A DNA stretch of 60,447 nucleotides from Candidatus Mediterraneibacter norwichensis (GTDB taxonomy: Bacteria; Bacillota; Clostridia; Lachnospirales; Lachnospiraceae), in contig DXIU01000058.1 of NCBI GenBank assembly GCA_019112765.1, positions 1-60,447 of the forward strand. Direction: 5' to 3'. The notes beneath the pieces were generated by a model. The model did no database searches, was not told the origin of the DNA, and worked only from the letters and a program-made list of their open reading frames with translations. A program made the position numbers and the translations under genes. Every line of letters begins with the position of its first letter. Positions within the stretch are counted from its first letter, which is position 1. Below are positions 1 to 34,834 of this stretch, one piece after another.

Positions 1-1221
1 GGTTTCCGCCTTGGCCGCTTCCAGCCGTTCCATTTCCGCCTGTGCGGAATTGAAAGTGGCGTGTGCGTAATAGTTCAGCGTCATAACGATGTTGGCGTGT
101 CCCATGATGTACTGCAAAGCCTTGGGGTTCATCCCGGCGTTTGCCATCCTTGTACAGAATGTGTGCCTCATGGTGTGGGGCGTCATTACCGGCGGCAATG
201 GCTCCTTATGGCACTTGTTGAATTTCTTGGCGAGGCCCTTAAACATGGCGTCATAGTTGACGGCCACTTTCGGCAGGCCGTCCCGGTTCAGGAACAGGAA
301 ATTGCTGTACCCGTCAACCTCAATGGCCTTTGCGCCTCTGCGGTTCTGCAACACTCGCTGGAACGCTTCATACGCGGCTGCGCTCATAGGCACCTGCCGA
401 AATCCGCTGTCCGTCTTGGGCGTTTCGATATAGTAGCCATCCTCTGTGCTTCTTAAAAGCTGGTGGTCTACATTGACAAAACGCTTTTCAAAATTCAGGT
501 CGGTTTCGGTCAGGCCGCAAAGCTCGGAAATCCGAAGCCCTGTTTCCAGCAGGATCACAACCTCGTCACAATACTTGGCATACACGGGATCGTCCTGCAT
601 GAATTTCAGGAGTTCTTCTTCCTGTGCGGGGGTGAGAGGCACCTTTGGTTCCGTGTCGTCGTTGATTACGTCATTGATCGGGAAGTCAAACGGGTTCTTG
701 CGGATGCAATCGTCCTGAATAGCCATATAAAAGATCGCTTTCAGGGAACGCTTGCTGTTGCAGATGGTGTTATAGGCAACACCCTGTTCCTGCATACGCA
801 AGGCCCATTCTTTTGCGTCGGACAGCTTCACGCTGTCGATGCTGGCCGCCCCCAGCTTGTCGTCCGATAAAAGTTTCATCAACTGTTCGCGGCTTTTTTT
901 CGTCCCACGCTTCACGTTTCCCCGCTGCCGGATGTACTTGGCATAAAGCTGGCAGACCGTCATTTTCTTGCCGATGGGGTCGATCCCGTCGGCAATGTCC
1001 TGTTGTATCTGCCTGACCTTTTCACGCAGAGAAAGGTCGGGGCGCTTCCCGGCAGGGATTTTGTCGGTGGGTACTAACTTCCATGAGTACACAAACTTGG
1101 GGTTTCCAAAGGTGTCCATATATTTGTAAGCGTATCTTCCGTCTGGTCGCTGGCTCTCTCCAGATTTCAAAAGGCGGCCTTTACTGTCGCGCCTTTTTTC
1201 ATCTCGTTCTTTTCTCGGCAT
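1..1221 (-). CDS. int: Tyrosine recombinase (integrase) of Tn916/Tn1549-type element, cut by the window edge
   Basis: Catalyses excision and integration of a conjugative transposon. The reverse strand is open from an ATG at 1221 to the left edge (407 codons, no stop seen). Tn916-family integrases are about 400 residues, so only a few residues are missing. The N-terminal ~70 residues resemble the arm-binding domain, residues ~85-170 the core-binding domain. The catalytic set is present: R230 (in GLRISELCGL), K269, H349-x-x-R352 (TPHTMRHTFC), H375 (GHANI) and probable nucleophile Y385 (NYYAH). An AGGAG stands 9 nt before the start. It lies downstream of the xis fusion, the usual xis-int order. 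As int normally sits at the element's end, an attachment site should lie just left of the window. Looks intact. Confidence 0.95.
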   Translation of the reverse strand, partial: MPRKERDEKRRDSKGRLLKSGESQRPDGRYAYKYMDTFGNPKFVYSWKLVPTDKIPAGKRPDLSLREKVRQIQQDIADGIDPIGKKMTVCQLYAKYIRQRGNVKRGTKKSREQLMKLLSDDKLGAASIDSVKLSDAKEWALRMQEQGVAYNTICNSKRSLKAIFYMAIQDDCIRKNPFDFPINDVINDDTEPKVPLTPAQEEELLKFMQDDPVYAKYCDEVVILLETGLRISELCGLTETDLNFEKRFVNVDHQLLRSTEDGYYIETPKTDSGFRQVPMSAAAYEAFQRVLQNRRGAKAIEVDGYSNFLFLNRDGLPKVAVNYDAMFKGLAKKFNKCHKEPLPPVMTPHTMRHTFCTRMANAGMNPKALQYIMGHANIVMTLNYYAHATFNSAQAEMERLEAAKAET

Positions 1222-1300: not shown

Positions 1301-1717
1301 CTATATGGCGTCAAGGCTGTCAATTATTTTTTCAAACTGCTTCCGCTTGATTTGGATGCGGTTGCCGTTCATAATCACCCAGCCAGCGGTAGGGTTTTCC
1401 TCGGCCAGTTTACGCAGCTTGTTTTCCCCGACGCGAAAATATTTGGACGCTTCTTCAATCGTCAGCGTGTATTTTTCCCAGATTGGCACATCAGTAGGGG
1501 TATCTAAATGAGGCTTTATTTCCTCGACAATGCTGTTTCCACTCTTTCCGGGAAGCATTAAATCCAGAATAATCACGCTGAATTTCTCATTATTGAGATA
1601 TAGCATGGCTTCTGTTCCAGAAAATGCCTGTTTACATTCATACCCTGCTTTTGTCAACGCTGACGCCATCATATTGTTGATGTCAGTATCATCTTCGATA
1701 ATTAAGATTTGTTCCAT
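1301..1717 (-). CDS. xis: Chimera: truncated response-regulator receiver fused to Tn1549-type excisionase
   Basis: 138 residues. Residues 1-71 read as the first half of a response-regulator receiver, with acidic pocket IIEDD and phospho-acceptor D52 in [13 protein letters not shown]. From about residue 75 ([18 protein letters not shown]) to the end it reads as a complete Tn916/Tn1549-type excisionase, a winged-helix DNA-bending protein of ~65 residues that steers Int towards excision. The join is in frame with no stop. The start has a Shine-Dalgarno (AGGAAG, 7-nt spacing) and the promoter at 1841-1869 lies upstream. The receiver part is not a copy of the regulator at 5873-6568. Probably a deletion removed the rest of a regulator/kinase/transporter cargo and joined its first gene to xis. 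Whether the chimera works is unknown. Confidence 0.85.
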
Positions 1718-1837
1718 GTTACCACTTCCTAATTTTATATTCTCAACAGGGCCTCCTTTGGAAGAAATCTAAAGTCCTCATTTGTGCTTACCCATTTTGA
1801 GGCCATGAAGATTTTGTTCTAACTTCCGGCAACATTT

Positions 1838-2095
1838 ATTATTATATTTCATTCTCTCAAACAGCACAAGGCAGGAAATATGAATAATAGAGTGTAAGTA
1901 TAGGCTATATCCAGAGGCAGCCATACGCCGGAAGAATGAGGCCAAACGACAGCGGAAAAGATACCTCCTGTCTACGCATTTAGGGGAATAAATGTCCATG
2001 AAAATCAAGTCTTTTCCGCCACAGTCGGCAGGCAGGCGGGATAGATTATCCAATCCCCGCCGAAACCGGCTTTGAAATGCGTAGAAAACAACCCA
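1838..2095. repeat. Direct-repeat module, copy A, with 113-nt segment closed by an inverted repeat
   Basis: Homologous to 6766-7020 in the same orientation. It holds the promoter above, a conserved stretch ending in CTCCTGT, and a 113-nt segment closed by CTACGCATTT (1972-1981) and AAATGCGTAG (2075-2084). Inside, the right half (GGCAGGCAGGCGGG ... CCCCGCC) is shared with copy B, while the left half differs. No convincing gene lies between 1718 and 2145: a 123-codon minus-strand frame there runs through the terminator and the inverted repeat. The closing stem plus conserved inner GGCGGG/CCCGCC pairing suggests a structured RNA or a folded regulatory DNA. Function unknown. Confidence 0.75.
1841..1869 (-). 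promoter_or_regulatory. Sigma-70 type promoter of repeat module copy A
   Basis: Minus strand: TTGTGC (1864-1869), 17-bp spacer, perfect TATAAT (1841-1846). It points at the receiver-Xis fusion. The same architecture occurs at 6770-6798. Confidence 0.8.
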
Positions 2096-2099
2096 TAGG

Positions 2100-2144
2100 A
2101 AAACGCCGGACACGGCGGCCTGCTGGCCCTGCGCCCGGCGTTTT
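2100..2144. terminator. GC-rich hairpin with T-run after the HTH_16 gene
   Basis: AAAACGCCGG (2100-2109) pairs with CCGGCGTTTT (2135-2144), with an inner GGCGGCCTGCTGGCC stem. It ends one base before the stop of the gene at 2146 and can work in both directions. A related hairpin follows the gene at 7092. Confidence 0.7.
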
Positions 2145-2145
2145 C

Positions 2146-2385
2146 TCATAGGCTGTCCTTTAGGATGGCCCGGATCAGCTTGTTTTGCAAGCGGTGTTTC
2201 ATGTACTCGTCCACCCGCACATGAGGCGAACCGTCAAAATCATAGAGCGTCCGGGTACACAGCTTATTCATGTAGCCGTCATAGTACCGCAAGATACGCT
2301 CCATTGCCAGCGGATCACCGGCGCGGGCGTCAGCAAATACAGACAGGGGCAGAAGCACCCTGCCGTGAAATGTGGGCTGCTTCAT
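2146..2385 (-). CDS. HTH_16-type helix-turn-helix protein of conjugative transposons
   Basis: 79 residues, of the small helix-turn-helix family (HTH_16) found beside sigma-like proteins in Tn916/Tn1549 elements. The recognisable part is ADARAGDPLAMERILRYYDGY followed by a basic helical tail with EYMKHRLQNKLIRAIL. The start overlaps the preceding sigma-like gene by 4 nt (ATGA), so the two are probably translationally coupled. Known relatives take part in element gene regulation; the exact target here is not shown by sequence. A GC-rich terminator follows at once. Confidence 0.8.
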   Translation of the reverse strand: MKQPTFHGRVLLPLSVFADARAGDPLAMERILRYYDGYMNKLCTRTLYDFDGSPHVRVDEYMKHRLQNKLIRAILKDSL

Positions 2386-2816
2386 GTCTGTTTTCTCCCT
2401 CCGTCGTCCTCCAATCTTTGCCGCAATTCTTTCAAAGTCTTTGTGCGGTGACGCTGGACGGCGCTTTTTGACATTCCAACAAGGCCGCCGATCTCACCGT
2501 CCGCCATAGCTGCTACACAGTGTAGAATTAAAATCTGCTGCTCCGGCTCCGGCAGGCTGGCAAAGGCTCCCGCCACCAGCTCGTCCCGGATATGTAGGCC
2601 ATAGCCAAAGGCCGAGAATACAAAGCTGTCGCTTGGGTACTCGTCCAGCGTGGAGAGCTTGTCCCATTGCGCCGGGGAAATATCCTCTAAGGATGTTTGC
2701 CGGTTACGGTATCGCTGCATTTCCCGCAGGTAGTCAATGGCTTCATGGTACAGAACCAGCTTGCAGTAATGGTCGAGTTGACAGCGTTCCACATAGTCAG
2801 AGGTGTATTCGTTCAT
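2382..2816 (-). CDS. Sigma-70-like regulatory protein of a conjugative transposon
   Basis: 144 residues. The C-terminal half resembles sigma region 4: a helix with LPEPEQQILILHC, then an HTH (ADGEIGGLVGMSKSAVQRH) and a basic end (RTKTLKELRQRL). Relatives sit in Tn916/Tn1549-type elements upstream of an HTH_16 gene and are thought to control element transcription. The start has GGGGGTGAGAAG just before ATG. High GC and codon use match the integrase, not the AT-rich cargo to its right. It appears complete, unlike the shorter relative at 8467-8718. Confidence 0.8.
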   Translation of the reverse strand: MNEYTSDYVERCQLDHYCKLVLYHEAIDYLREMQRYRNRQTSLEDISPAQWDKLSTLDEYPSDSFVFSAFGYGLHIRDELVAGAFASLPEPEQQILILHCVAAMADGEIGGLVGMSKSAVQRHRTKTLKELRQRLEDDGGRKQT

Positions 2817-2931
2817 CTTCTCACCCCCGATCTGCGGGAGAATGAGAAGATTAAGCTGTTTCCACCGCTCCTTTCATCGGTGGCAGTATAGCGGCTCCGG
2901 CCCGCACCAAAGAACCGCAGAAAACAACAAA

Positions 2932-2966
2932 TTTCGCCCGGCAGGTCATAGACCCACCGGGCGAAA
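2932..2966. terminator. 10-bp perfect hairpin upstream of the sigma-like gene
   Basis: TTTCGCCCGG (2932-2941) pairs perfectly with CCGGGCGAAA (2957-2966) across a 15-nt loop. It lies downstream of the small minus-strand frame ending at 2989, so it may end that transcript. Confidence 0.45.
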
Positions 2967-2988
2967 CTGAAAGCAATATGAAGATGAT

Positions 2989-3096
2989 TTATATGGTATA
3001 GTTCATACTTATGGCTGCTTGTCCCCGTAGCCGGGGACGGGCTTTTTTTGATGGTGCGTACCCCGTCGTATTATGTCGAAACGCTTTTTGCTTCAT
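2989..3096 (-). CDS. Possible 35-residue basic peptide
   Basis: An ATG at 3096 follows GGAGGG at 7 nt and opens 35 codons, basic in the middle (APSKKARPRLRG). A + strand hairpin with T-run (3021-3049) overlaps it, which weakens the case. It shares GC content with the transposon backbone. No family recognised; listed because of the strong ribosome binding site. Confidence 0.3.
   Translation of the reverse strand: MKQKAFRHNTTGYAPSKKARPRLRGQAAISMNYTI
3021..3049 (+). terminator. Hairpin with T-run on the + strand
   Basis: GTCCCC-GTAGCC-GGGGAC (3021-3038) then GGG and CTTTTTTT. No + strand gene is visible upstream, so it may be a leftover or a chance hit inside the minus-strand frame. Confidence 0.35.
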
Positions 3097-3232
3097 GGCG
3101 GCTCCCTCCGTGGGCCGCCGATCCCGCCAGCGTCAGGGCGTCGCTCTGTATGAGGGTATAAAGAACGGCGGCCTTGATTTGTTCAAAGCCGCCGCAGCGA
3201 TCAATAAGCATGGATAGTGTCTGTCGAACGAC
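3071..3232 (-). pseudogene. C-terminal remnant of an unidentified backbone protein
   Basis: A GC-rich minus-strand frame reads about 60 residues to a stop at 3071, including VRQTLSMLIDRCGGFEQIK and an ATG at 3211. It begins about where the AT-rich permease gene ends (3285) and overlaps the 35-codon frame at 2989-3096. The composition switch at ~3240 suggests that cargo DNA was joined into an older backbone gene here. The rest of 2817-3284 holds only hairpins. Protein family not recognised. Confidence 0.3.
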
Positions 3233-3284
3233 GGCTTTTTTTCTTTTGCCGTCGTCCGGCAGTTATTTATGAATTTTAATATTG

Positions 3285-3965
3285 CTAATCTATCTGCATA
3301 ATTTTTTTTGTAAAGGTATATTTCAAAGCGATTAGAGAAATTGCCAAAGTAGCGATAATTACCCAAATATTTTCTTGATAATTTTCGCTGGCTGCAATCA
3401 CAATCTGTCGCAGATAGATAAAAATAATGGAACTGACTATTGTTACTGTGACAGACTTTTTTATCATACCAACAGCAAATGACCAAAAGCCTAAACAACA
3501 AAATACAACGGTACTAGATAATGCTGCATATATCCAGTTTTTTAGAACATTTACAGTAAAATCACCAGCAACCAAATTGAACTTCCAATCGACACCAAGA
3601 ATGAACAGTGAACAGCACAGATACCCGAATAAAATAGAAATCACCATAAACAAGGTTATAATGAAAAGTTTAGAAATGATAAGCTTTTTACGATCAATCG
3701 GGTATGTAAACATAAGTAAAATGGTTTTGTTATTGTATTCGCTGATAATCAGCGCGGAAACTAAAACCGCAAAGAAAATCACATATACAAACGCAAATAT
3801 TAGCTGAACAGCCCGAAAAGCGCTTTCAAAGGTGTAAGCATTATCTGATGTATCGTTTAAGGCTACAAAAACAAAAAACATACTAAGGATAATTGCGGCA
3901 ATCGAGATGAAAATATACCGCAAGAAATGAATCTTTTTTAATTCAAGTTTCATCAAATGTGCCAT
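3285..3965 (-). CDS. ABC-2 type permease (BcrB-like), cargo transporter
   Basis: 226 residues. About six hydrophobic segments can be seen (for instance FISIAAIILSMFFVFVAL near the start and VSSIIFIYLRQIVIAA near the end), as in ABC-2 permeases paired with BcrA-type ATPases. It would form the membrane half of an exporter with the ATPase just upstream, probably removing a peptide antibiotic or bacteriocin. An in-frame GTG at 3974 overlaps the ATPase stop, but the ATG at 3965 has AGGAGG at 10 nt and was chosen. Last gene of the operon, AT-rich unlike the flanking backbone. Confidence 0.85.
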   Translation of the reverse strand: MAHLMKLELKKIHFLRYIFISIAAIILSMFFVFVALNDTSDNAYTFESAFRAVQLIFAFVYVIFFAVLVSALIISEYNNKTILLMFTYPIDRKKLIISKLFIITLFMVISILFGYLCCSLFILGVDWKFNLVAGDFTVNVLKNWIYAALSSTVVFCCLGFWSFAVGMIKKSVTVTIVSSIIFIYLRQIVIAASENYQENIWVIIATLAISLIALKYTFTKKIMQID

Positions 3966-3970
3966 GCTAT

Positions 3971-4882
3971 TCACACCTCCTCAATGATATGGAAGAAGTA
4001 ATCTTCCAGAGAATTTTTCTTCATCCCTATACTGGCAATTCCAATACCATTTTGCACCAATAAGGCTGAAAGTTCTTTGACCGATTTTTGAAGATCGTAT
4101 ATCTCAATTTTTGTGCCCGAAATAACTTTGAAGTTGGTAATTCCAAACTTCTGTTCCAGTAGATAACCAGCCCGGCTGATGTCGTCAACTTCCAATTCAA
4201 TGTAATCTGTCTGTGATTTACGAATATCTATCATCGAACTCTCTTTGAGAAGTTTTCCATTTTGGATGATACCTACTGTATCTGCAATTTGTTCAACTTC
4301 CGAAAGAATATGGCTTGATATGAAAATGGTAATTCCAAATTCTTGATTAAGTCGTCGGAAAAGCATTCGCATTTCTCGAATACCTTCAGGATCAAGAGCA
4401 TTAATCGGCTCGTCCAAAATCAAAAACTCCGGTTTGGTTAAAATTGCTCTGGCGATTGCAAGTCGTTGCTTCATACCCATTGAATAGTGGGATACTACTT
4501 TTCCCTCAATGTCCTGCAAATCAACCAGCTTCAACACTTCGTCAATTCTTTCCGTATTGTGATAGCCCATGTACTCACAATGCAATTCAAGATTTTTACG
4601 TCCAGTTATTTTTTCATAAAAATAGGGATGTTCGATAATAGAGCCGATGCGTTTGCGGCATTCATAACTTGTACTACCGATTTTCTCGCCAAAAATGTAA
4701 ACATCGCCAGAATCAGGCTGTGTGAGGTTCAATAGCATTTTCATCACTGTACTTTTTCCCGCGCCGTTTGGCCCAACAAAACCGTAAATCTCACCTTTTT
4801 TCACATGGATATTTACGGAGTTTACAACAGTCTTATTTTTATAAGACTTCACTAGATTATGTGTTTCCATAATATATTCCAT
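3971..4882 (-). CDS. ABC transporter ATP-binding protein, BcrA/lantibiotic-immunity type
   Basis: 303 residues. Walker A GPNGAGKST is near residue 38, signature YSMGMKQRLA near 134, Walker B LILDEP near 155, and an H-loop histidine follows in ISSHILSE. A C-terminal extension of ~85 residues after the nucleotide-binding domain is typical of BcrA-like ATPases for bacitracin or lantibiotic resistance. It works with the permease at 3285-3965 and is preceded by a two-component pair, the usual make-up of an antibiotic-sensing resistance module. The start has AAAGGAG upstream. Substrate is inferred, not shown. Confidence 0.88.
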   Translation of the reverse strand: MEYIMETHNLVKSYKNKTVVNSVNIHVKKGEIYGFVGPNGAGKSTVMKMLLNLTQPDSGDVYIFGEKIGSTSYECRKRIGSIIEHPYFYEKITGRKNLELHCEYMGYHNTERIDEVLKLVDLQDIEGKVVSHYSMGMKQRLAIARAILTKPEFLILDEPINALDPEGIREMRMLFRRLNQEFGITIFISSHILSEVEQIADTVGIIQNGKLLKESSMIDIRKSQTDYIELEVDDISRAGYLLEQKFGITNFKVISGTKIEIYDLQKSVKELSALLVQNGIGIASIGMKKNSLEDYFFHIIEEV

Positions 4883-4955
4883 TTTGTCTGTCTCCTTTCA
4901 GATAACAGTATACAAAATAGACTTCTCTTTTTTCTGCCCGAAATCTAACTTTTTT

Positions 4956-5876
4956 CTAACTTTTCAAAATCAGAGAAAAAACTGTTTTGTATCCCGGATT
5001 ACTTATAACTTGAATATCTGCTTCCATTTGTAATGCAAGATTTTTTGCAATCGTCAGTCCCAGCCCGCTGCCTGAACCTTTATGAGCCGTTGTATAGGTA
5101 CGGTAAAAAATCTGCTCTTGATCTTTTTCCAAAATACCTTGCCCATGATCTTCAACATCAATTCTTATTTTTCCGTTCATGCTGCTTAACCGTAAGGCAA
5201 GGTATTTCCCATCGCCGCCGTGTCTGATTGCATTGTCGATTAGGTTTTTCAAAATTCTTTTCAAGGCATCTTTGTCAACATAAGCGTATTCGGGTAAAGC
5301 CCCTACATCTATCTCAACGCAAAAATGTTTTTGCTCCAGAATATCATAATAGTCCAAAATCACTTCATGACATAGTTCGGTAATATTCGTTCGTTGTAAA
5401 TCAATTTTCATATCGCCCGATGTTATTTTTGACATTGTAAAGTATTCGTTGATTGTAATAACCAATTCACTTGCTTTACGATCAATTTTAGTAGCCATAT
5501 TATAAAAATTATTTTCGTCAGCTTTTTCAGCTTCTTTACATAATAATTCACTATATCCTTTTAGAACGGTAAGTGGAGTTCTAATATCATGGGATATATT
5601 TGTAAGCACTTGCGTCATGGCTTTTTTTGAACGCTCATATTCCGCCTTTTGAGAATAAAATTTATCTAATAATCGATTTATTTCAGCAGCAAGTTCCTTA
5701 ATTTGTATACTCTCAGATGGTACTAAAATGTATGAATTTTCTTTTGTATAAGATAAATCTGCAATGCGTTCTTTAATATAATGCAATTCTTTATTCATTG
5801 CTTGATATTTTGTTCGTTGCAAGAAAAGCAAAGCAAATAGTATAACAACTAATAATATGGAAAAGAATAGTATCAT
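4956..5876 (-). CDS. Sensor histidine kinase of the cargo two-component system
   Basis: 306 residues. One N-terminal membrane helix (FFSILLVVILFALLFL), a short cytoplasmic linker (~residues 20-85), then HisKA with H-box SHDIRTPLT and a HATPase domain with N-box NLIDNAIRHG, G1 DHGQGI and G2 GSGLGL. It lacks a large extracellular sensor, like kinases that sense through a partner ABC transporter. Its start overlaps the end of the response-regulator gene by 4 nt (5873-5876), so the pair is coupled. It would phosphorylate the adjacent regulator, most likely in response to the drug handled by the downstream transporter. Confidence 0.9.
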   Translation of the reverse strand: MILFFSILLVVILFALLFLQRTKYQAMNKELHYIKERIADLSYTKENSYILVPSESIQIKELAAEINRLLDKFYSQKAEYERSKKAMTQVLTNISHDIRTPLTVLKGYSELLCKEAEKADENNFYNMATKIDRKASELVITINEYFTMSKITSGDMKIDLQRTNITELCHEVILDYYDILEQKHFCVEIDVGALPEYAYVDKDALKRILKNLIDNAIRHGGDGKYLALRLSSMNGKIRIDVEDHGQGILEKDQEQIFYRTYTTAHKGSGSGLGLTIAKNLALQMEADIQVISNPGYKTVFSLILKS

Positions 5877-6568
5877 CTGTTATCCTCCATCTTATAACCT
5901 ATTCCCCATAAGGTCTTGATATAGGTTGTCGTATCTTCTTCACCGTTTTTCAGTTTTAGGCGCAGTCGATTGATATGGGTATTTAGTACGTTTTCATTTC
6001 CGAAATATGGCTCTTTCCAAATGAGTTCGTACAAGCGTTCTTTTGAGAAAGCCTGTCCCGGATGGGTTGCCAGCAGATGCAAAATTTCAAATTCAATGGG
6101 CGTTAAATCTATCAGAGTTCCTTGGCGGCTAACAGTATGACTTATTGGGTCAATCTCTAAATCTTTAATCTTGACACCTGCATCGTTTGGCATGGCTTGA
6201 TAGGTTCTGGCACGCCGAATATTGGCTTTAATCCTTGCAGTAAGCTCAATTAGAGAAAATGGCTTTACAACGTAATCATCGGCCCCCAAATTCAGCCCCA
6301 ATGACTTATCAGTGTCATTGTCTTTGGCTGTGATTATAATAATCGGAATAGTGCTGACCTGCCGAATAGTCTTAATAATCTCCATACCACTCATATCCGG
6401 CAACATAAGGTCTATGAGTGCAAGAGAGTATTCGTCATAATTCTTGATAGTATGAATAGCTGTTTTACCATCACTAAAAGGAAGCACTTGAAATTCTCCT
6501 GACAAATAGTCTTTCACCATGCTTCTGATTTCTTCATCATCTTCAATCAATATAATCTTATTTTCCAT
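5873..6568 (-). CDS. OmpR-family response regulator of the cargo operon
   Basis: 231 residues. Receiver domain at residues ~1-115 with acidic pocket (LIEDDEE) and phospho-acceptor in LIDLMLPDMSG; C-terminal winged helix with IEFEILHLLATHPGQ and NVLNTHINRLRLKL. The ATG at 6568 has AGGAG at 8 nt, better than an ATG 51 nt upstream that lies inside the preceding HTH gene. It overlaps that gene by 11 nt and the kinase by 4 nt. Expected to activate its own operon, probably from the promoter at 6770-6798. Confidence 0.9.
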   Translation of the reverse strand: MENKIILIEDDEEIRSMVKDYLSGEFQVLPFSDGKTAIHTIKNYDEYSLALIDLMLPDMSGMEIIKTIRQVSTIPIIIITAKDNDTDKSLGLNLGADDYVVKPFSLIELTARIKANIRRARTYQAMPNDAGVKIKDLEIDPISHTVSRQGTLIDLTPIEFEILHLLATHPGQAFSKERLYELIWKEPYFGNENVLNTHINRLRLKLKNGEEDTTTYIKTLWGIGYKMEDNR

Positions 6569-6749
6569 TGCGATTGCTCCTTGCTTTTTTTGTCCTGCCA
6601 TCAATGGGCTTTTTTGCATCCTTTGGAACGAGCCAGACAGTCCCCATTTTCATAGCGCCGGGAATACGGCCCGAAGAACAGTAATAATTTATCCAACGAG
6701 GGGTCACACCCCATTTTTCGCCAGCTTCCTTTAATGTCATATAGTCCAT
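6558..6749 (-). CDS. Small helix-turn-helix protein (MerR/excisionase-like HTH)
   Basis: 63 residues. A single HTH of the DNA-binding/excisionase type fills residues 1-45 (MTLKEAGEKWGVTPRWINYYC, then the wing GTVWLVPKDAKKP), followed by a basic tail KKARSNRNGK. It is the first gene of the regulator-kinase-ABC operon, with GGAGG six nucleotides before its ATG, and overlaps the regulator start by 11 nt. It may be an extra operon regulator or an element directionality factor; sequence does not decide. It is not a copy of the Xis domain at 1301-1717. Confidence 0.75.
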   Translation of the reverse strand: MDYMTLKEAGEKWGVTPRWINYYCSSGRIPGAMKMGTVWLVPKDAKKPIDGRTKKARSNRNGK

Positions 6750-6765
6750 TTTGCACCTCCAACCT

Positions 6766-7020
6766 TAATATTATAATTCGCTTTCTCGAATAGTACAAGG
6801 CAGGAAATATGAATAATAGAGTGTAAGTATAGGTCATATCCAGAGGCAGTCAGGCGCCAGAAGAAAGAGGACGAACGGCAGCGGAAAAGATACCTCTTGT
6901 CTACGCATTTAAGCCGCTGAAAAGCCCGCTATTTCAGGGCTTTCCCGGCATGGTCGGCGGGCAGGCAGGACAGATTATCCATTCCCCGCCAGAGAGGGCT
7001 TCTAAATGCGTAGGAATATT
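6766..7020. repeat. Direct-repeat module, copy B
   Basis: Second copy of the module at 1838-2095, same orientation. A 113-nt segment is closed by CTACGCATTT (6901-6910) and AAATGCGTAG (7004-7013), exactly the same length as in copy A. The inner GGCGGG ... CCCCGCC half is conserved; the other half differs and carries its own AAAGCCC/GGGCTTT hairpin. It lies between the cargo operon promoter and the divergent small gene at 7092. No open frame in it is convincing. Confidence 0.75.
6770..6798 (-). promoter_or_regulatory. Sigma-70 type promoter of repeat module copy B
   Basis: Minus strand: TTGTAC (6793-6798), 17-bp spacer, TATAAT (6770-6775). It lies 20 bp upstream of the HTH gene and should drive the HTH-regulator-kinase-ABC operon. 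Same layout as at 1841-1869. Confidence 0.85.
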
Positions 7021-7091
7021 CTTCTGATGGTGGTATTCCCGACGCTTCTGTGGTATGCTCATAGTAAAACTATGACAGGAGTGTTTAAGGG

Positions 7092-7286
7092 ATGGCTGAA
7101 CAGGAAATGTTGCTGGACAGCGCCACGATCAAAGCCGCCGTCGCGGGCGAGAAGTGGGCCACGGAAAAGGTGATTGAACACTATGCCCCCATGATCGACG
7201 AGCTGGCCGTGGACGAGGATATGAAGCAGCACTTAATTATGAAACTGTTGGAAGCCCTGCCGAATTTCCCAATGGAGCAGGCATAA
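7092..7286 (+). CDS. HTH_16-like small protein, paralogue of the gene at 2146
   Basis: 64 residues, same layout as the 79-residue protein at 2146-2385: a helical N-terminal part (IKAAVAGEKWATEKVIEHYAP) and a second helix (DEDMKQHLIMKLLEALPNF), but lacking the middle insert. AGGAG stands 10 nt before the ATG. It lies on the opposite strand from its paralogue while repeat A and repeat B keep the same direction, so the two modules have been shuffled. Likely a transposon regulator, activity unknown. Confidence 0.7.
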   Translation: MAEQEMLLDSATIKAAVAGEKWATEKVIEHYAPMIDELAVDEDMKQHLIMKLLEALPNFPMEQA

Positions 7287-27360: not shown

Positions 27361-28719
27361 ATGAAAATAGTTATTATTGGTGACGGAAAAGTGGGGTATA
27401 AGCTGGCAAAACAGCTGTCCGTTGAAAACTATGATGTGGTATTGATTGATAGCAATGAAAAGAAACTCAGATTTGCCATTGACCGTCTGGACATCTCCTG
27501 CGTAGCCGGAAACGGGGCAGACGCAGAGGTTCAGAAGCAGGCAGATGTGCCTCACGCTGATCTTGTAATCGCATGTACATCAGCAGATGAATGCAATATG
27601 CTCAGCTGTCTGATCGCAAGAAGGCTGGGAGCGAGGCATACGATTGCCCGGGTGAGAAATCCTGTTTATTACAGACAGATCGGACTTCTCAAAGAAGATC
27701 TTCATCTGAGCATGGCGGTTAATCCGGAGCTGATCGTAGCAAATGAGATCAGCCGGCTGCTGCTGTTTCCGGATGCCAGTAAAATTGAGACATTTGTAAA
27801 AGGAAGAGTGGAGCTGATCGAATTTCCGGTGTGCGCTCAGAGCAGGCTGGTGGGCAGGTCTCTTGCGGAAATGTATGACAGATTCCAGGTTCAGGTGCTC
27901 GTATGTGCCGTAGAGCATGGAGATGAAGTGATTATTCCGGACGGTTATTATGTGCTCCGCCCCGGAGACCGGCTTCATATTACCGCGTCACATGCGGAGA
28001 TTGAGCGTTTTTTCAAAATGCACGGCAATCATAAGGAAAAGATCAGAAAAGTGATTATCTGCGGCGGAGGAAGAGTGGCATACTACCTGTCAAAACAGCT
28101 CTGTGCCCTTGGGATGCAGGTAAAGATCATAGAGAGAAATGAAGCCCGCTGCGAGGAGCTGTGCGAACTTCTTCCCAGGGCGGTTATCATTCAGGGAGAT
28201 GCTACGGATCACGACCTCCTGATTGAAGAGGGAGCAGATGCGGCGGATGCCTTTGTGGCTCTGACCGGAATGGATGAGGAGAATATCATTGTATCTCTTT
28301 TTGCCAAGAAACAGGGGATCGGAAAGATTATTACAAAAATCAACGAAGACAGGCGGGCGCATATTGTCGAGGATTTCGGCATAGATAGTGTTGTCTCGGC
28401 GAAAGCTGCCACGGCGGACTCCATTTTAAGCTATGTGAGGGCAAGAAAGAATTCTCAGGGAAGCGCCAATGTCGAGACAATGTATCAGCTTGTAGATGAC
28501 AAGGTTGAAGCTCTTGAATTCATCGTAAAATCCGCGACCAGGTATACGGGAATTCCGCTTAAGGATCTGCAGCTCAGGTCGAATAATCTGATTGCCTGTA
28601 TTGCAAGGAAAAATCAGATTATTATTCCAAACGGTGATGACTGCATTGAACCAGGCGACAGTGTAATTGTCGTTACAATGGAACCTCATGTTGAGGATAT
28701 CGCTGATATTCTGATGTAA
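27361..28719 (+). CDS. trkA: Trk potassium uptake system, NAD-binding subunit TrkA
   Basis: 452 residues. Cytoplasmic gating subunit of the TrkH potassium channel. Two RCK halves: RCK_N at 1-120 (IIGDGKVGYKLAKQL) plus RCK_C to ~215, and RCK_N again from ~228 (ICGGGRVAYYLSKQL) plus RCK_C to the end. Each glycine-rich loop binds NAD(H) or a nucleotide. trkH follows after 16 nt. Own promoter upstream (27289-27317). Product and partner are well established for the family. Confidence 0.95.
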   Translation: MKIVIIGDGKVGYKLAKQLSVENYDVVLIDSNEKKLRFAIDRLDISCVAGNGADAEVQKQADVPHADLVIACTSADECNMLSCLIARRLGARHTIARVRNPVYYRQIGLLKEDLHLSMAVNPELIVANEISRLLLFPDASKIETFVKGRVELIEFPVCAQSRLVGRSLAEMYDRFQVQVLVCAVEHGDEVIIPDGYYVLRPGDRLHITASHAEIERFFKMHGNHKEKIRKVIICGGGRVAYYLSKQLCALGMQVKIIERNEARCEELCELLPRAVIIQGDATDHDLLIEEGADAADAFVALTGMDEENIIVSLFAKKQGIGKIITKINEDRRAHIVEDFGIDSVVSAKAATADSILSYVRARKNSQGSANVETMYQLVDDKVEALEFIVKSATRYTGIPLKDLQLRSNNLIACIARKNQIIIPNGDDCIEPGDSVIVVTMEPHVEDIADILM

Positions 28720-28735
28720 GTGAGAGGCAGAAGCG

Positions 28736-30181
28736 ATGAATAAAAAAATGATCATATATATATTAGGAAAAATGCTGGGCGTCGAAGGCGCCCTGCTTTT
28801 AATACCTGCTCTCGTGTCACTGATTTACGGTGAAAAAACAGGCGTCTCCTTTTTGATTGTAGCTGCGGTTCTGGGTGTGATCTTCCTTATATTTGGAAGA
28901 AAAAAGCCGAAGAACAGCAGGATATACGGGAAAGAAGGATTTGCCATTGTAGGGCTTGCCTGGATCCTCTGGTCGCTGTTCGGCTCCATTCCTTTTGTTA
29001 TTACAGGATCTGTCCCGAATTATATAGATGCGTTTTTCGAGACTGTGTCCGGTTTTACTACAACCGGCTCCACGATTCTTCAGGAAATAGAATCCCTGCC
29101 CATGGGCATTAATTTCTGGAGATGCTTTACTCATTGGATCGGAGGCATGGGAGTGCTGGTGTTTGTGATGATGGTTACCTCTCTGGGCGATGAGAATGCC
29201 ATGCCGCTTATGCGCGCGGAAGTTCCGGGCCCTGAGTCTGACAAACTTGTTCCGAAGGCAAGAAGTACCGCCAAAATTCTGTACCAGATGTATTTTGTCC
29301 TTACAGCGGCGGAAGTAGTGCTTCTGATGTTTGGAGGCATGAATCTGTATGATGCTCTTGTACATTCCTTCAGTACCGCGGGTACCGGAGGCTTTTCCAA
29401 CAGAAATTCCAGCGTGGCCTTTTACGACAGCGCGTATATAGACGGCGTAATTACAGTGTTTATGATTCTGTTCGGAATCAATTTTAACCTGTATTTCCTT
29501 CTGCTTCTTAAGAACTGGAAGAGTGTGCTGAAAAATGAAGAACTGAGAGCTTATCTGGGTATTATTGCCGCGGCGGTTGCGGTCATTACGGTAAATATCC
29601 TCAGTATATACGAAAATGTTTTTCACGCCTTCCGCTATGCTTCTTTCCAGGTGGCTTCGGTCATTACGACAACGGGATTTTATACGGCAGATTTTGAACT
29701 ATGGCCGGAATTATCCAAGGTGGTCCTTCTGACGATTATGTTTATCGGAGCCTGTGCCGGTTCCACCGGAGGAGGCATCAAGGTCTGCCGTTTTGTGATC
29801 CTGTGCAAATCCATCCGCCAGGAGATCAGGAAAATTCTTCATCCGAATGTGGTTACCATGGTGAAGATCAACGGGAAAAAAGTCAGCAATGATACAATGC
29901 GGGGCATCAATACATTTTTTGCCGCATACATTTTTATACTGGTTATGTCTGTTCTGATTGTATCCGTCGATAATTTTGATTTCGCTACATCATTCAGCGG
30001 TGTTCTGACAACAATAAACAATGTGGGACCCGGTATCTCCAAAGTAGGGCCGGTAGAAAACTTCCATATGTTCTCCCCTCTGTCAAAGCTGGTGTTCTGC
30101 TTTGACATGCTGGTGGGAAGACTGGAGATATTCCCTTATCTTCTGCTCCTGTCTCCTGATCTGTGGAGGAGAAGATTCTGA
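28736..30181 (+). CDS. trkH: Trk potassium uptake channel subunit TrkH
   Basis: 481 residues. Membrane pore protein for K+ uptake with TrkA. The four pore motifs are visible: GFTTTGSTI, STAGTGGFS, ITTTGFYT and TINNVGPG, separated by paired membrane helices. The C-terminus GRLEIFPYLLLLSPDLWRRRF is typical. Second gene of the trkA-trkH pair, with an exported protein gene 28 nt behind it. Confidence 0.95.
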   Translation: MNKKMIIYILGKMLGVEGALLLIPALVSLIYGEKTGVSFLIVAAVLGVIFLIFGRKKPKNSRIYGKEGFAIVGLAWILWSLFGSIPFVITGSVPNYIDAFFETVSGFTTTGSTILQEIESLPMGINFWRCFTHWIGGMGVLVFVMMVTSLGDENAMPLMRAEVPGPESDKLVPKARSTAKILYQMYFVLTAAEVVLLMFGGMNLYDALVHSFSTAGTGGFSNRNSSVAFYDSAYIDGVITVFMILFGINFNLYFLLLLKNWKSVLKNEELRAYLGIIAAAVAVITVNILSIYENVFHAFRYASFQVASVITTTGFYTADFELWPELSKVVLLTIMFIGACAGSTGGGIKVCRFVILCKSIRQEIRKILHPNVVTMVKINGKKVSNDTMRGINTFFAAYIFILVMSVLIVSVDNFDFATSFSGVLTTINNVGPGISKVGPVENFHMFSPLSKLVFCFDMLVGRLEIFPYLLLLSPDLWRRRF

Positions 30182-34698: not shown

Positions 34699-34824
34699 CT
34701 GCGTGAAAACGCAGAAAAATTTACTCAGGAGAGTCTCTTTGTAAAAAAGAGCGCCGAAGGTGTAAGCGGATGTCTGTTCCTATCTTACAGTCATACCGCG
34801 AGTCTCTCAGGCAAAAGGATGGAG
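34699..34824 (+). ncRNA. Glycine riboswitch, single aptamer
   Basis: The conserved aptamer elements are present: GGAGAGTCTC (34729-34738), the core GCGCCGAAGGTGTAAGC (34751-34767) and the 3' strand GAGTCTCTCAGGCAAAAGGA (34800-34819). Only one aptamer occurs. A hairpin CTGCGT-GAAA-ACGCAG (34699-34714) stands just 5', where singlet glycine riboswitches keep a ghost stem in place of the second aptamer. The aptamer ends ~15 nt from the symporter ATG next to GGAGG and no terminator intervenes, so control of translation is likely. Confidence 0.92.
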
Positions 34825-34834
34825 GTATAAAGGA

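Follow-up and report, generated by a model that had tools for sequence, protein, structure and literature searches.

A family of stem-closed elements at operon ends of Tn1549/CTn-type conjugative elements of gut bacteria

Two copies of a stem-closed element in one window

The window analyzed here, a stretch of 60,447 nucleotides from Candidatus Mediterraneibacter norwichensis (contig DXIU01000058.1), contains a stem-closed segment twice, which raises the question of whether this segment is a folded RNA, a site of recombination or regulation, or, as the original prediction from the sequence proposed, a docking point where cargo operons are acquired. A repeat search bore out the predicted duplication of a 250-bp module, with two same-strand homologous blocks at an offset of 4929, namely, 1836-1982 and 6765-6911 (87% identity) and 2005-2087 and 6934-7016 (78% identity). 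The 10-bp closing repeats are spaced as predicted: in both homologous copies, the stretch opened by CTACGCATTT and closed by AAATGCGTAG is exactly 113 nt long (Table 1). The GGCGGG half, described as conserved, does not keep its place but is shifted by about 11 nt between the copies. Of the predicted minus-strand consensus promoter, the perfect -10 box TATAAT and the 17-bp spacer stand, but the -35 box matches at only three of six positions, so that the promoter is weak; a consensus scan that requires 4/6 listed neither site.

RNA folding of the 113-nt segments gave z-scores of -4.45 (copy 1) and -3.03 (copy 2) for the plus strand and -3.20 and -3.85, respectively, for the minus strand. After composition correction and the shuffling control, folding energy favors neither strand (p 0.43). 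No Rfam 15 family was found over either copy at the gathering level or at E<=5 across 1700-7200, and in nine related loci, no Rfam match at E<=1 overlapped a copy of the element. Sub-threshold matches of microRNA type flank the element in three of these nine loci (L004, L032, and L123).

Each copy is directly preceded by the tail of a gene for a cysteine-rich VLP protein (KRQRKRYLLSTHL and similar; tblastn). The prediction that each copy stands ahead of a cargo gene or its remnant applies to the minus strand, on which copy 2 leads to the two-component and ABC transporter operon and copy 1 to a receiver-Xis fusion. This fusion, which among 200 genomes is full-length only in this window, looks like a deletion scar. 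No relaxase or type IV secretion system (T4SS) gene was detected in the window by tblastn with the pMG2200 proteins.

Table 1. Features around the two element copies, in window coordinates
Feature	Position	Strand	Basis or remark
Element copy 1	1971..2085	+	model positions 1-115; cmsearch with model R1, 82.1 bits (copy in training set); exact repeats
Element copy 2	6900..7014	+	cmsearch with model R1, 84.4 bits (copy in training set); exact repeats
P1 5' arm, copy 1	1972..1981	+	terminal stem; partner 2075-2084
P1 5' arm, copy 2	6901..6910	+	terminal stem; partner 7004-7013
Promoter-like site near copy 1	1841..1869	-	TTGTGC, 17 nt, TATAAT (1846-1841); -35 3/6
Promoter-like site near copy 2	6770..6798	-	TTGTAC, 17 nt, TATAAT (6775-6770); -35 3/6
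VLP-gene tail remnant into copy 1	1896..1982	+	equivalent to VLP residues 93-121; tblastn E 5e-5
VLP-gene tail remnant into copy 2	6855..6911	+	equivalent to VLP residues 103-121; tblastn E 1.5e-4
Inverted repeat / terminator-like hairpins directly after copy 1	2088..2156		sequence
ICE tyrosine integrase	16..1200	-	tblastn
Receiver domain fused to Tn916-type Xis	1304..1717	-	PF00072 + PF09035
HTH_16 protein, in place of Tn916 orf8	2149..2385	-	PF12645
Sigma-70-like factor, in place of Tn916 orf7	2385..2816	-	Sigma70_r4 below curated cut-off; tblastn to pMG2200 sigma70
Cargo operon: ABC permease, ABC ATPase, histidine kinase, response regulator	3288..6619	-	Pfam
HTH_16 gene after copy 2	7092..7283	+	PF12645; gene order matches that following the VLP copy of pMG2200

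The element recurs at the ends of transfer and relaxase operons

The further copies expected outside the window were found in large numbers, and the two window copies are members of a large family in Tn1549/CTn-type integrative and conjugative elements (ICEs) of gut bacteria. Among gut Firmicutes, a good deal of cargo travels on these ICEs, drug resistance included, as exemplified by vanB on pMG2200. The family is apparently widespread and without a name: the searches made found no named cis element at the start or end of the transfer and relaxase operons of such ICEs. Its overall length is nearly fixed, mostly 113–116 nt, with two mirrored arms of about 13 nt that enclose a semi-conserved interior comprising an AAAGCC...GGCTTT hairpin and A-rich blocks. 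A pattern scan of IMG/VR yielded one match (locus L107), a 52-aa HTH protein used as a query against the same collection yielded none, and neither did phage records.

Inspection of the genes next to other copies showed that the family sits at the ends of the transfer and relaxase operons of ICEs, at three kinds of sites: the stop codon of the VLP or relaxase gene, the interval that separates the first transfer gene (DUF6017) from the left-end terminator, and the position after sigma70-HTH_16. In all 12 copies that precede a DUF6017-like gene, reading by eye found a terminator-like hairpin with a T-run upstream and a ribosome-binding site downstream, with no promoter seen between terminator and element. 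The Tn1549-type vanB element on pMG2200 carries two copies on the minus strand, at 28645-28759 after VLP and at 28090-28203 after HTH_16; no copy was found before its DUF6017 gene. In the 16 annotated stretches (pMG2200 and 15 chosen ones; tblastn), all 21 copies are co-directed with the nearest gene. Window copy 1 breaks this rule, facing HTH_16 and xis in antisense, as do, by resemblance, related copies that have an HTH_16-like ORF of the other strand as the right neighbor. Sense orientation is seen in the order HTH_16, element, recombinase (loci L066 and L078) and in the order sigma70, elements, int (locus L267), places equivalent to that of canT in Tn916.

The explanation that we favor, with a probability of roughly 0.4, is that the element is a cis-element of ICE transcripts, the stem of which is read by an ICE-encoded factor. 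The element would act in the transcripts of the modules, in the 5' leader of the transfer operon and at the 3' end of VLP, relaxase or HTH_16 operons, and the folded stem would be recognized by a factor from the same ICE that sets read-through or processing of ICE operons, as Tn916 does with the canT RNA. In its favor are the compensated changes in the stem, the co-direction of copies with neighboring genes, the setting of the DUF6017 copies between terminator and ribosome-binding site, the wobble preference of the P2 core, the arms shared within an ICE, and the place of canT in Tn916. Against it are the balance of G-U and A-C in P1, the pairing statistics of P3, the equal folding of the two strands, VLP 3' regions that have no stem, partly broken stems, the DUF6017 copies with no promoter seen ahead of them, antisense copies such as window copy 1, and the lack of homology with canT.

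The proximity to the relaxase and VLP genes and the strong folding on both strands would also suit a single-strand DNA structure for transfer, either part of oriT or a second-strand origin (sso) such as sso1 of ICEBs1, which lies immediately downstream of nicK (PMC4595007). However, copies occur on opposite strands within one ICE (G046, A on plus and B on minus), and from one ICE to another they are oriented differently with respect to the relaxase gene (an argument that assumes that oriT follows the relaxase orientation), so that they cannot all serve one transferred strand. Furthermore, a TCCTG|T-like sequence ahead of P1 occurs almost only in the CTACGC lineage, one other copy (L144) being the exception. 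On this strand and lineage evidence, both an sso and a universal nic site are disfavored, and we regard a transfer origin of either type as improbable.

Changes in the terminal stem are mostly compensated

Among 103 loci retrieved with an exact-stem pattern, 18 were discarded by eye and by alignment score, their interiors being unrelated (Magasanikbacteria, Vogelbacteria and others). RNAalifold detected no covariation in 67 copies from this pattern because the search itself fixes the stem, and the sample was replaced by one anchored on VLP. MAFFT alignment with unequal ends gave no consensus structure; the copies were realigned with equal 13-nt arms. In an alignment of 30 of the 40 copies, each of the 13 P1 pairs changes on both sides, with 89.0% paired, and the covariation score of the whole structure is 0.373 vs 0.161 after shuffling (0/500). 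Ten copies were left out of this alignment (L108, L109, L197, L169, L117, L122, L151, L155, L163, and L137), among them some whose stems are bulged, broken or of unusual spacing. When most of these were included (36 rows, 31 distinct arm pairs), P1 was 86% paired vs 61% (maximum 70%) with shuffled arms, and across 100 distinct copies, in an alignment fitted to the model, it was 90.2% paired. When the stem played no part in the choice of sequences, a score of at least 20 was reached by 28 of 55 non-redundant VLP 3' regions and by 0.4% of shuffles, and 14 of the 55 had no stem (score <14). Some copies, such as L117 and L143, have mosaic, partly broken stems. Covariation in P2 and P3 is weaker than in P1, and P3 is 43–66% paired. 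Changes in the stem are thus largely compensated and, given that a covarying family with many copies exists, neither a lack of further copies nor a general lack of compensation was found.

RNA helices usually do not show G-U and A-C pairs equally often. In P1, the two are nearly balanced, with 20 G-U and 22 A-C among the inner pairs, 16 and 17 in 47 distinct arm pairs, and 41 and 33 in pairs 2-13 (edge pairs included). The P2 core prefers wobble pairs (49 G-U vs 19 A-C), and the P3 base has 38 G-U vs 66 A-C. A glycine-riboswitch control gave 13 G-U and 4 A-C but, comprising only five pairs, is weak (Fisher p 0.075). The P1 wobble statistics do not favor RNA as the acting molecule.

Left flanks differ more often than right flanks

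Of 119 pairs of copies sharing 88% identity or more, 46 differ in the left flank, 8 in the right, 18 in both, and 47 in neither. Beyond the stem, the left-hand sequences lose their identity over the first 16 nt or so. With indels allowed, the flanks form 19 left and 11 right clusters overall; one right-flank type, that of HTH_16, is common to 18 copies that have 6 left-flank clusters among them, and another is common to 42 copies that have 14. These counts supersede an ungapped clustering (38 left and 27 right clusters, with 11 left clusters for 17 copies), in which some indel variants were counted as different. Given that, among near-identical copies, the left flank is usually the one changed and the right one kept, a seam at which cargo docks fits the data. 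The prediction of a cargo docking point thus stands inasmuch as copies lie at seams joining quite different sequences, but not as to place, since the core sites are where transfer and relaxase operons of ICEs end rather than cargo sites.

The element might be a DNA-level junction site, with two inverted half-sites in helical register bound by a recombinase- or relaxosome-type ICE protein that joins modules and cargo, following a logic that may be comparable to that of integron attC or resolvase res sites; we consider this reading, analogy included, possible but rather unlikely. The symmetry of P1, free of wobble preference, the near-constant length, the excess of left-flank changes, the many left clusters for one right-flank type, direct repeats of the element 2–5 kb apart (the window, L070, L082, and L103), and arms common within an ICE are all consistent with it. 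Conversely, such a site would have no need to run in the direction of the adjoining gene, wobble pairs are preferred in the P2 core, and no dedicated recombinase was identified, genes for serine recombinases as well as tyrosine int genes occurring in the stretches that contain copies. The same mosaics would result from homologous recombination between repeated copies, and the short residual sequence on the left is often similar to VLP codons, which points to descent.

The sharp boundaries and the pairs in which both flanks differ could also indicate a non-autonomous, MITE-like insertion element that has spread within ICEs and is bounded by 13-bp terminal inverted repeats. We consider this very improbable: different lineages have kept the copy at the VLP stop codon, both arms change together while the interior stays alignable, and the flanks inspected, by eye rather than by computation, had no obvious target duplications. 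Under the favored explanation, a transcript cis-element read by an ICE factor, the element may in addition be a place of exchange of ICE modules and cargo because it is repeated and located at seams, and the window copies would be products of such exchange.

The arms as a possible tag of each conjugative element

P1 arm identity is 0.84 within an ICE vs 0.57 between ICEs, compared with 0.62 and 0.56 for the interior. Because the arms are alike within an ICE while the interiors diverge, something ICE-specific may read P1, and the end sequence may be an identity tag that differs between transposon lineages. In G067:C14, the A and B arms disagree; this pair was kept in the mean, from which G035, also nested, was excluded. 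By an after-the-fact reading, the G067:C14 stretch seems to hold two nested elements, one A arm matching its relaxase-type copy. A bolder conjecture, to which we give little credence, is that the 13-bp arms are a private code that each ICE lineage puts on its module ends, read by and co-evolving with an ICE factor, so that modules would recognize each other and every copy would be a port for cassette-like uptake of cargo.

If real, the element would offer a handle on how ICEs switch on transfer and where cargo enters, and a natural system of paired sites that co-evolve; model R1 would be a computable marker of ICE module borders.

Comparison with known systems

Integron attC and Tn3-type res sites are of about this length and have inverted ends and a variable interior between modules; the present family differs in that no cognate recombinase was found. 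With sso1 of ICEBs1 it shares the ability of the region just downstream of the relaxase gene to fold, but its strand usage is inconsistent with one transferred strand.

In keeping with the role favored for the present family, canT of Tn916 acts in cis as a regulator within a conjugative element; it lies at the junction of orf8 (HTH_16) and xis and, in the circular form, upstream of the left-end terminator. In the portions of PMC11658703 used here, canT is described as most likely a cis-acting antitermination RNA between orf8 and xis that is orientation-specific and active in pieces of 341 to 452 nt, with an insulating terminator at the left end of Tn916; these portions describe neither repeats nor tags for canT. 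Unlike canT, the family also has copies downstream of the terminator and at the 3' ends of operons. The Tn916-type orf8-xis interval of pCF10 gave no match to the element model at E<=10 in a 46-kb search and scored no higher than 9.6 bits when 601 bases were searched with filters off. To judge from these comparisons, canT can occupy an equivalent position but is not homologous in sequence. The put RNA of phage HK022 and conAn of pLS20, processive antiterminators taken up in the discussion of PMC11658703, resemble the family in being compact structured elements that lie close to the beginning of long operons in mobile elements.

Two homologous copies in a partial conjugative element

The repeated element of about 113 nt is present in the window in two copies that are homologous in two blocks (87% and 78%; see the table), each with a cysteine-rich VLP gene tail directly upstream. 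The original prediction of a real two-copy repeat with common ends holds, with 113 nt from CTACGCATTT to AAATGCGTAG in each copy, and both copies, on both strands, fold better than dinucleotide shuffles (z -3.0 to -4.5). The GGCGGG motif that was proposed as a common half is out of register between the copies, and in the suggested minus-strand promoter the -10 is perfect and the spacer measures 17 bp, but the -35 is poor (3/6) and the site is absent from the promoter scan list. Within the host genome, matches at E ≤ 0.001 are limited to the two places in the window; a possible third copy downstream of a VLP gene (L135, on G000:C134) is interrupted by the contig end, and repeats of this kind may be a cause of broken assemblies.

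The window is a partial integrative conjugative element (ICE) that includes an integrase, a receiver-Xis fusion, copy 1, HTH_16, sigma70, a two-component/ABC cargo operon, copy 2 and a second HTH_16; a tblastn search with the proteins of pMG2200 found no relaxase or T4SS gene in the window. Copy 2 has the same VLP tail, element, HTH_16 order as pMG2200, and copy 1 lies between HTH_16 and Xis. In the fusion, a truncated response-regulator receiver domain is joined in frame to a Tn916-type excisionase; because it is full-length in this genome only, of 200 searched, it is probably the scar of a deletion and not a new regulator.

Coordinates of the features in the window and of hairpins in other contigs
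Feature	Sequence	Position	Strand	Detail
Element copy 1	window	1971-2085	+	
Element copy 2	window	6900-7014	+	
Homologous block	window	1836-1982 / 6765-6911		87%
Homologous block	window	2005-2087 / 6934-7016		78%
Receiver-excisionase fusion	window	1304-1717	-	
Glycine riboswitch	window	34716-34832	+	RF00504, 60.8 bits
End-pattern match	L107 (IMG/VR contig)	6392-6502		111 nt; single viral-contig case
Unrelated-interior hairpin	L006, L007, L021, L031, L037, L047, L050, L054, L059			Magasanikbacteria
Unrelated-interior hairpin	L089			Azambacteria
Unrelated-interior hairpin	L039, L056, L060			Vogelbacteria

Spread of the family

A scan of the genome collection for the exact 10-bp repeats spaced 70-100 nt matched 103 stretches, and removal of 18 loci with unrelated interiors left 91 copies (88 in 85 loci, two in the window and one in pMG2200), so that the further database copies that had been anticipated do exist. 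Distant blastn matches of copy 1 among plasmids comprised 14 records, all from Enterococcus (60% of the query, 69.9% identity), the underlying feature in 11 of these being the cysteine-rich VLP gene; pMG2200, the sole plasmid record examined in full, carries a Tn1549-type element with a vanB cluster, in the order relaxase, VLP, element, HTH_16, element. The covariance model of the element, R1, identified 89 places in 25 of 120 family genomes, many of these being close kin of the training copies, and 22 of the 25 also yielded a VLP match at E ≤ 1e-10. Rfam 15 gave zero matches to the element, both in the window and in nine related loci. The portions of the literature searched (including PMC7755788 and PMC7563491, with subscription papers sparsely covered) yielded no account of the element, and it may be described elsewhere.

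Several candidate-phyla contigs contain a different, likewise repeated hairpin of 111-116 nt, with identical 10-bp ends and an unrelated interior. Pairs of elements in the same orientation, about 200-430 nt apart, occur in L014, L108, L067, L005, L246 and L247.

Compensated changes in the terminal stem

Given that an exact-repeat search fixes the stem, VLP genes were sampled for an unbiased stem test (E ≤ 0.001; 41 of 200 family and 35 of 391 class genomes). P1, the terminal stem formed by the mirrored arms, differs in sequence from lineage to lineage at the VLP 3' end but keeps its pairing, the arm pairs including TGTTACGCAGTAG/CTACTGCGTAACA, TGTGGACAGTTAG/CTAACCGTCCACA (one mismatch), GTAGAAAGTTAG/CTAACTTTCTAC and TGTCTGCATTTTA/AAAAATGCGGACA. 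Among 55 non-redundant VLP 3' regions scored without selection for a stem, 38 reached a stem score of at least 16 (vs 4.5% of shuffles), 28 scored at least 20 (vs 0.4%), and 14 remained below 14.

The stem changes are largely compensated, as originally predicted: in 30 aligned copies, picked for a recognisable stem with 10 of 40 excluded, all 13 P1 pairs are altered on both sides, 89% of the cells are paired, and the covariation score is 0.373, compared with 0.161 for shuffled and at most 0.165 for slid alignments. With most of the excluded copies restored (36 copies, 31 distinct arm pairs), 86% of the cells are paired vs 61% (maximum 70%) when whole arms are shuffled between rows. Across 100 distinct copies in the model-fitted set, P1 is 90% paired, and the helices P2 and P3 are 70% and 43-66% paired, respectively. 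Mosaic stems with arms from two lineages, partly unpaired or bulge-paired, were observed in L117, L143 and the L112/L197 group.

Position, direction and the acting molecule

In 12 of 20 fetched loci, the copy directly precedes one and the same protein cluster, which opens the transfer operon and is DUF6017-like (tblastn) in all four re-fetched cases; by eye, each of these 12 copies is closely preceded by a terminator-like hairpin with a T-run and followed, about 10-15 nt further on, by a ribosome-binding site. The other eight loci (neighbours named except for L251-L254) include L255 and L256, after a relaxase gene, and L246 and L247, after sigma70 or sigma70-HTH_16. Copies of a second position class follow VLP, often across its stop codon, or a relaxase gene; in the third, the copy lies between HTH_16 and a serine recombinase (L066, L078) or between sigma70 and int (L267). 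In 15 stretches chosen for ICE content, plus pMG2200, 21 of 21 copies have the direction of the nearest tblastn-found gene, a weak antisense match overlapping a real copy being left out; co-direction does not hold everywhere, window copy 1 being antisense to HTH_16 and xis.

The shared direction and the locations of the copies speak for an element that is transcribed. Against this, in P1 G-U and A-C combinations are about equally frequent (20:22 in inner cells; 16:17 among 47 distinct arm pairs), so P1 is unlike an RNA helix; the corresponding ratios are 49:19 in the P2 core and 13:4 in a small riboswitch control. Folding exhibits no strand preference after shuffling correction, and the interior, taken by itself, shows mild structure on either strand (mean z -1.16 and -1.47; 101 copies). 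We slightly prefer an element that acts as RNA.

Seams and shared arms

Clustering of the 100-nt flanks of 88 CTACGC-type copies, with indels allowed, produced 19 left vs 11 right clusters. Six left clusters are combined with the HTH_16-type right flank (18 copies) and 14 with a looser right cluster (42 copies), whereas three other right clusters (12, 6 and 4 copies) have a single left cluster each. Where the right cluster is shared and the left differs, identity is no higher than background at distances of more than about 16 nt outside the arm. Among copy pairs at least 88% identical, the left flank alone differs in 46, the right alone in 8, both in 18 and neither in 47. The upstream 500 nt of the 91 copies contain a full VLP in 7 cases, a partial match in 11 (about seven being convincing tails, both window copies included) and none in 73. 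Together, the flank clusters, pair counts and VLP remnants indicate that the element marks seams where left-hand sequence gets swapped, either by a dedicated reaction or by ordinary homologous recombination. Such a pattern would fit the proposed cargo docking point.

Arm identity is 0.84 within an ICE (9 pairs, few lineages) vs 0.57 between ICEs (72 pairs), and interior identity is 0.62 vs 0.56 for the same pair sets; the worst within-ICE pair, G067:C14, from a stretch of apparently two nested elements, was retained in the mean, and G035, also nested, was excluded. Arms alike within an ICE, with interiors less so, point to a putative ICE-specific factor that reads the arms and argue against a partner as conserved as RNA polymerase alone.

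Comparison with known systems

Some ICEs have copies of the element at the place equivalent to that of Tn916 canT, in all likelihood an antitermination RNA acting in cis and located in the orf8-xis interval (PMC11658703). Identity with canT was rejected because a Tn916-type interval of this kind, taken from pCF10, has zero model matches. The single-strand origin sso1 of ICEBs1 adjoins the relaxase gene (PMC4595007), but the strand usage of the element does not fit such an origin: in one ICE (G046), the copies before DUF6017 and after the VLP/relaxase gene are on opposite strands, which argues against a single-strand origin and makes this identification disfavoured.
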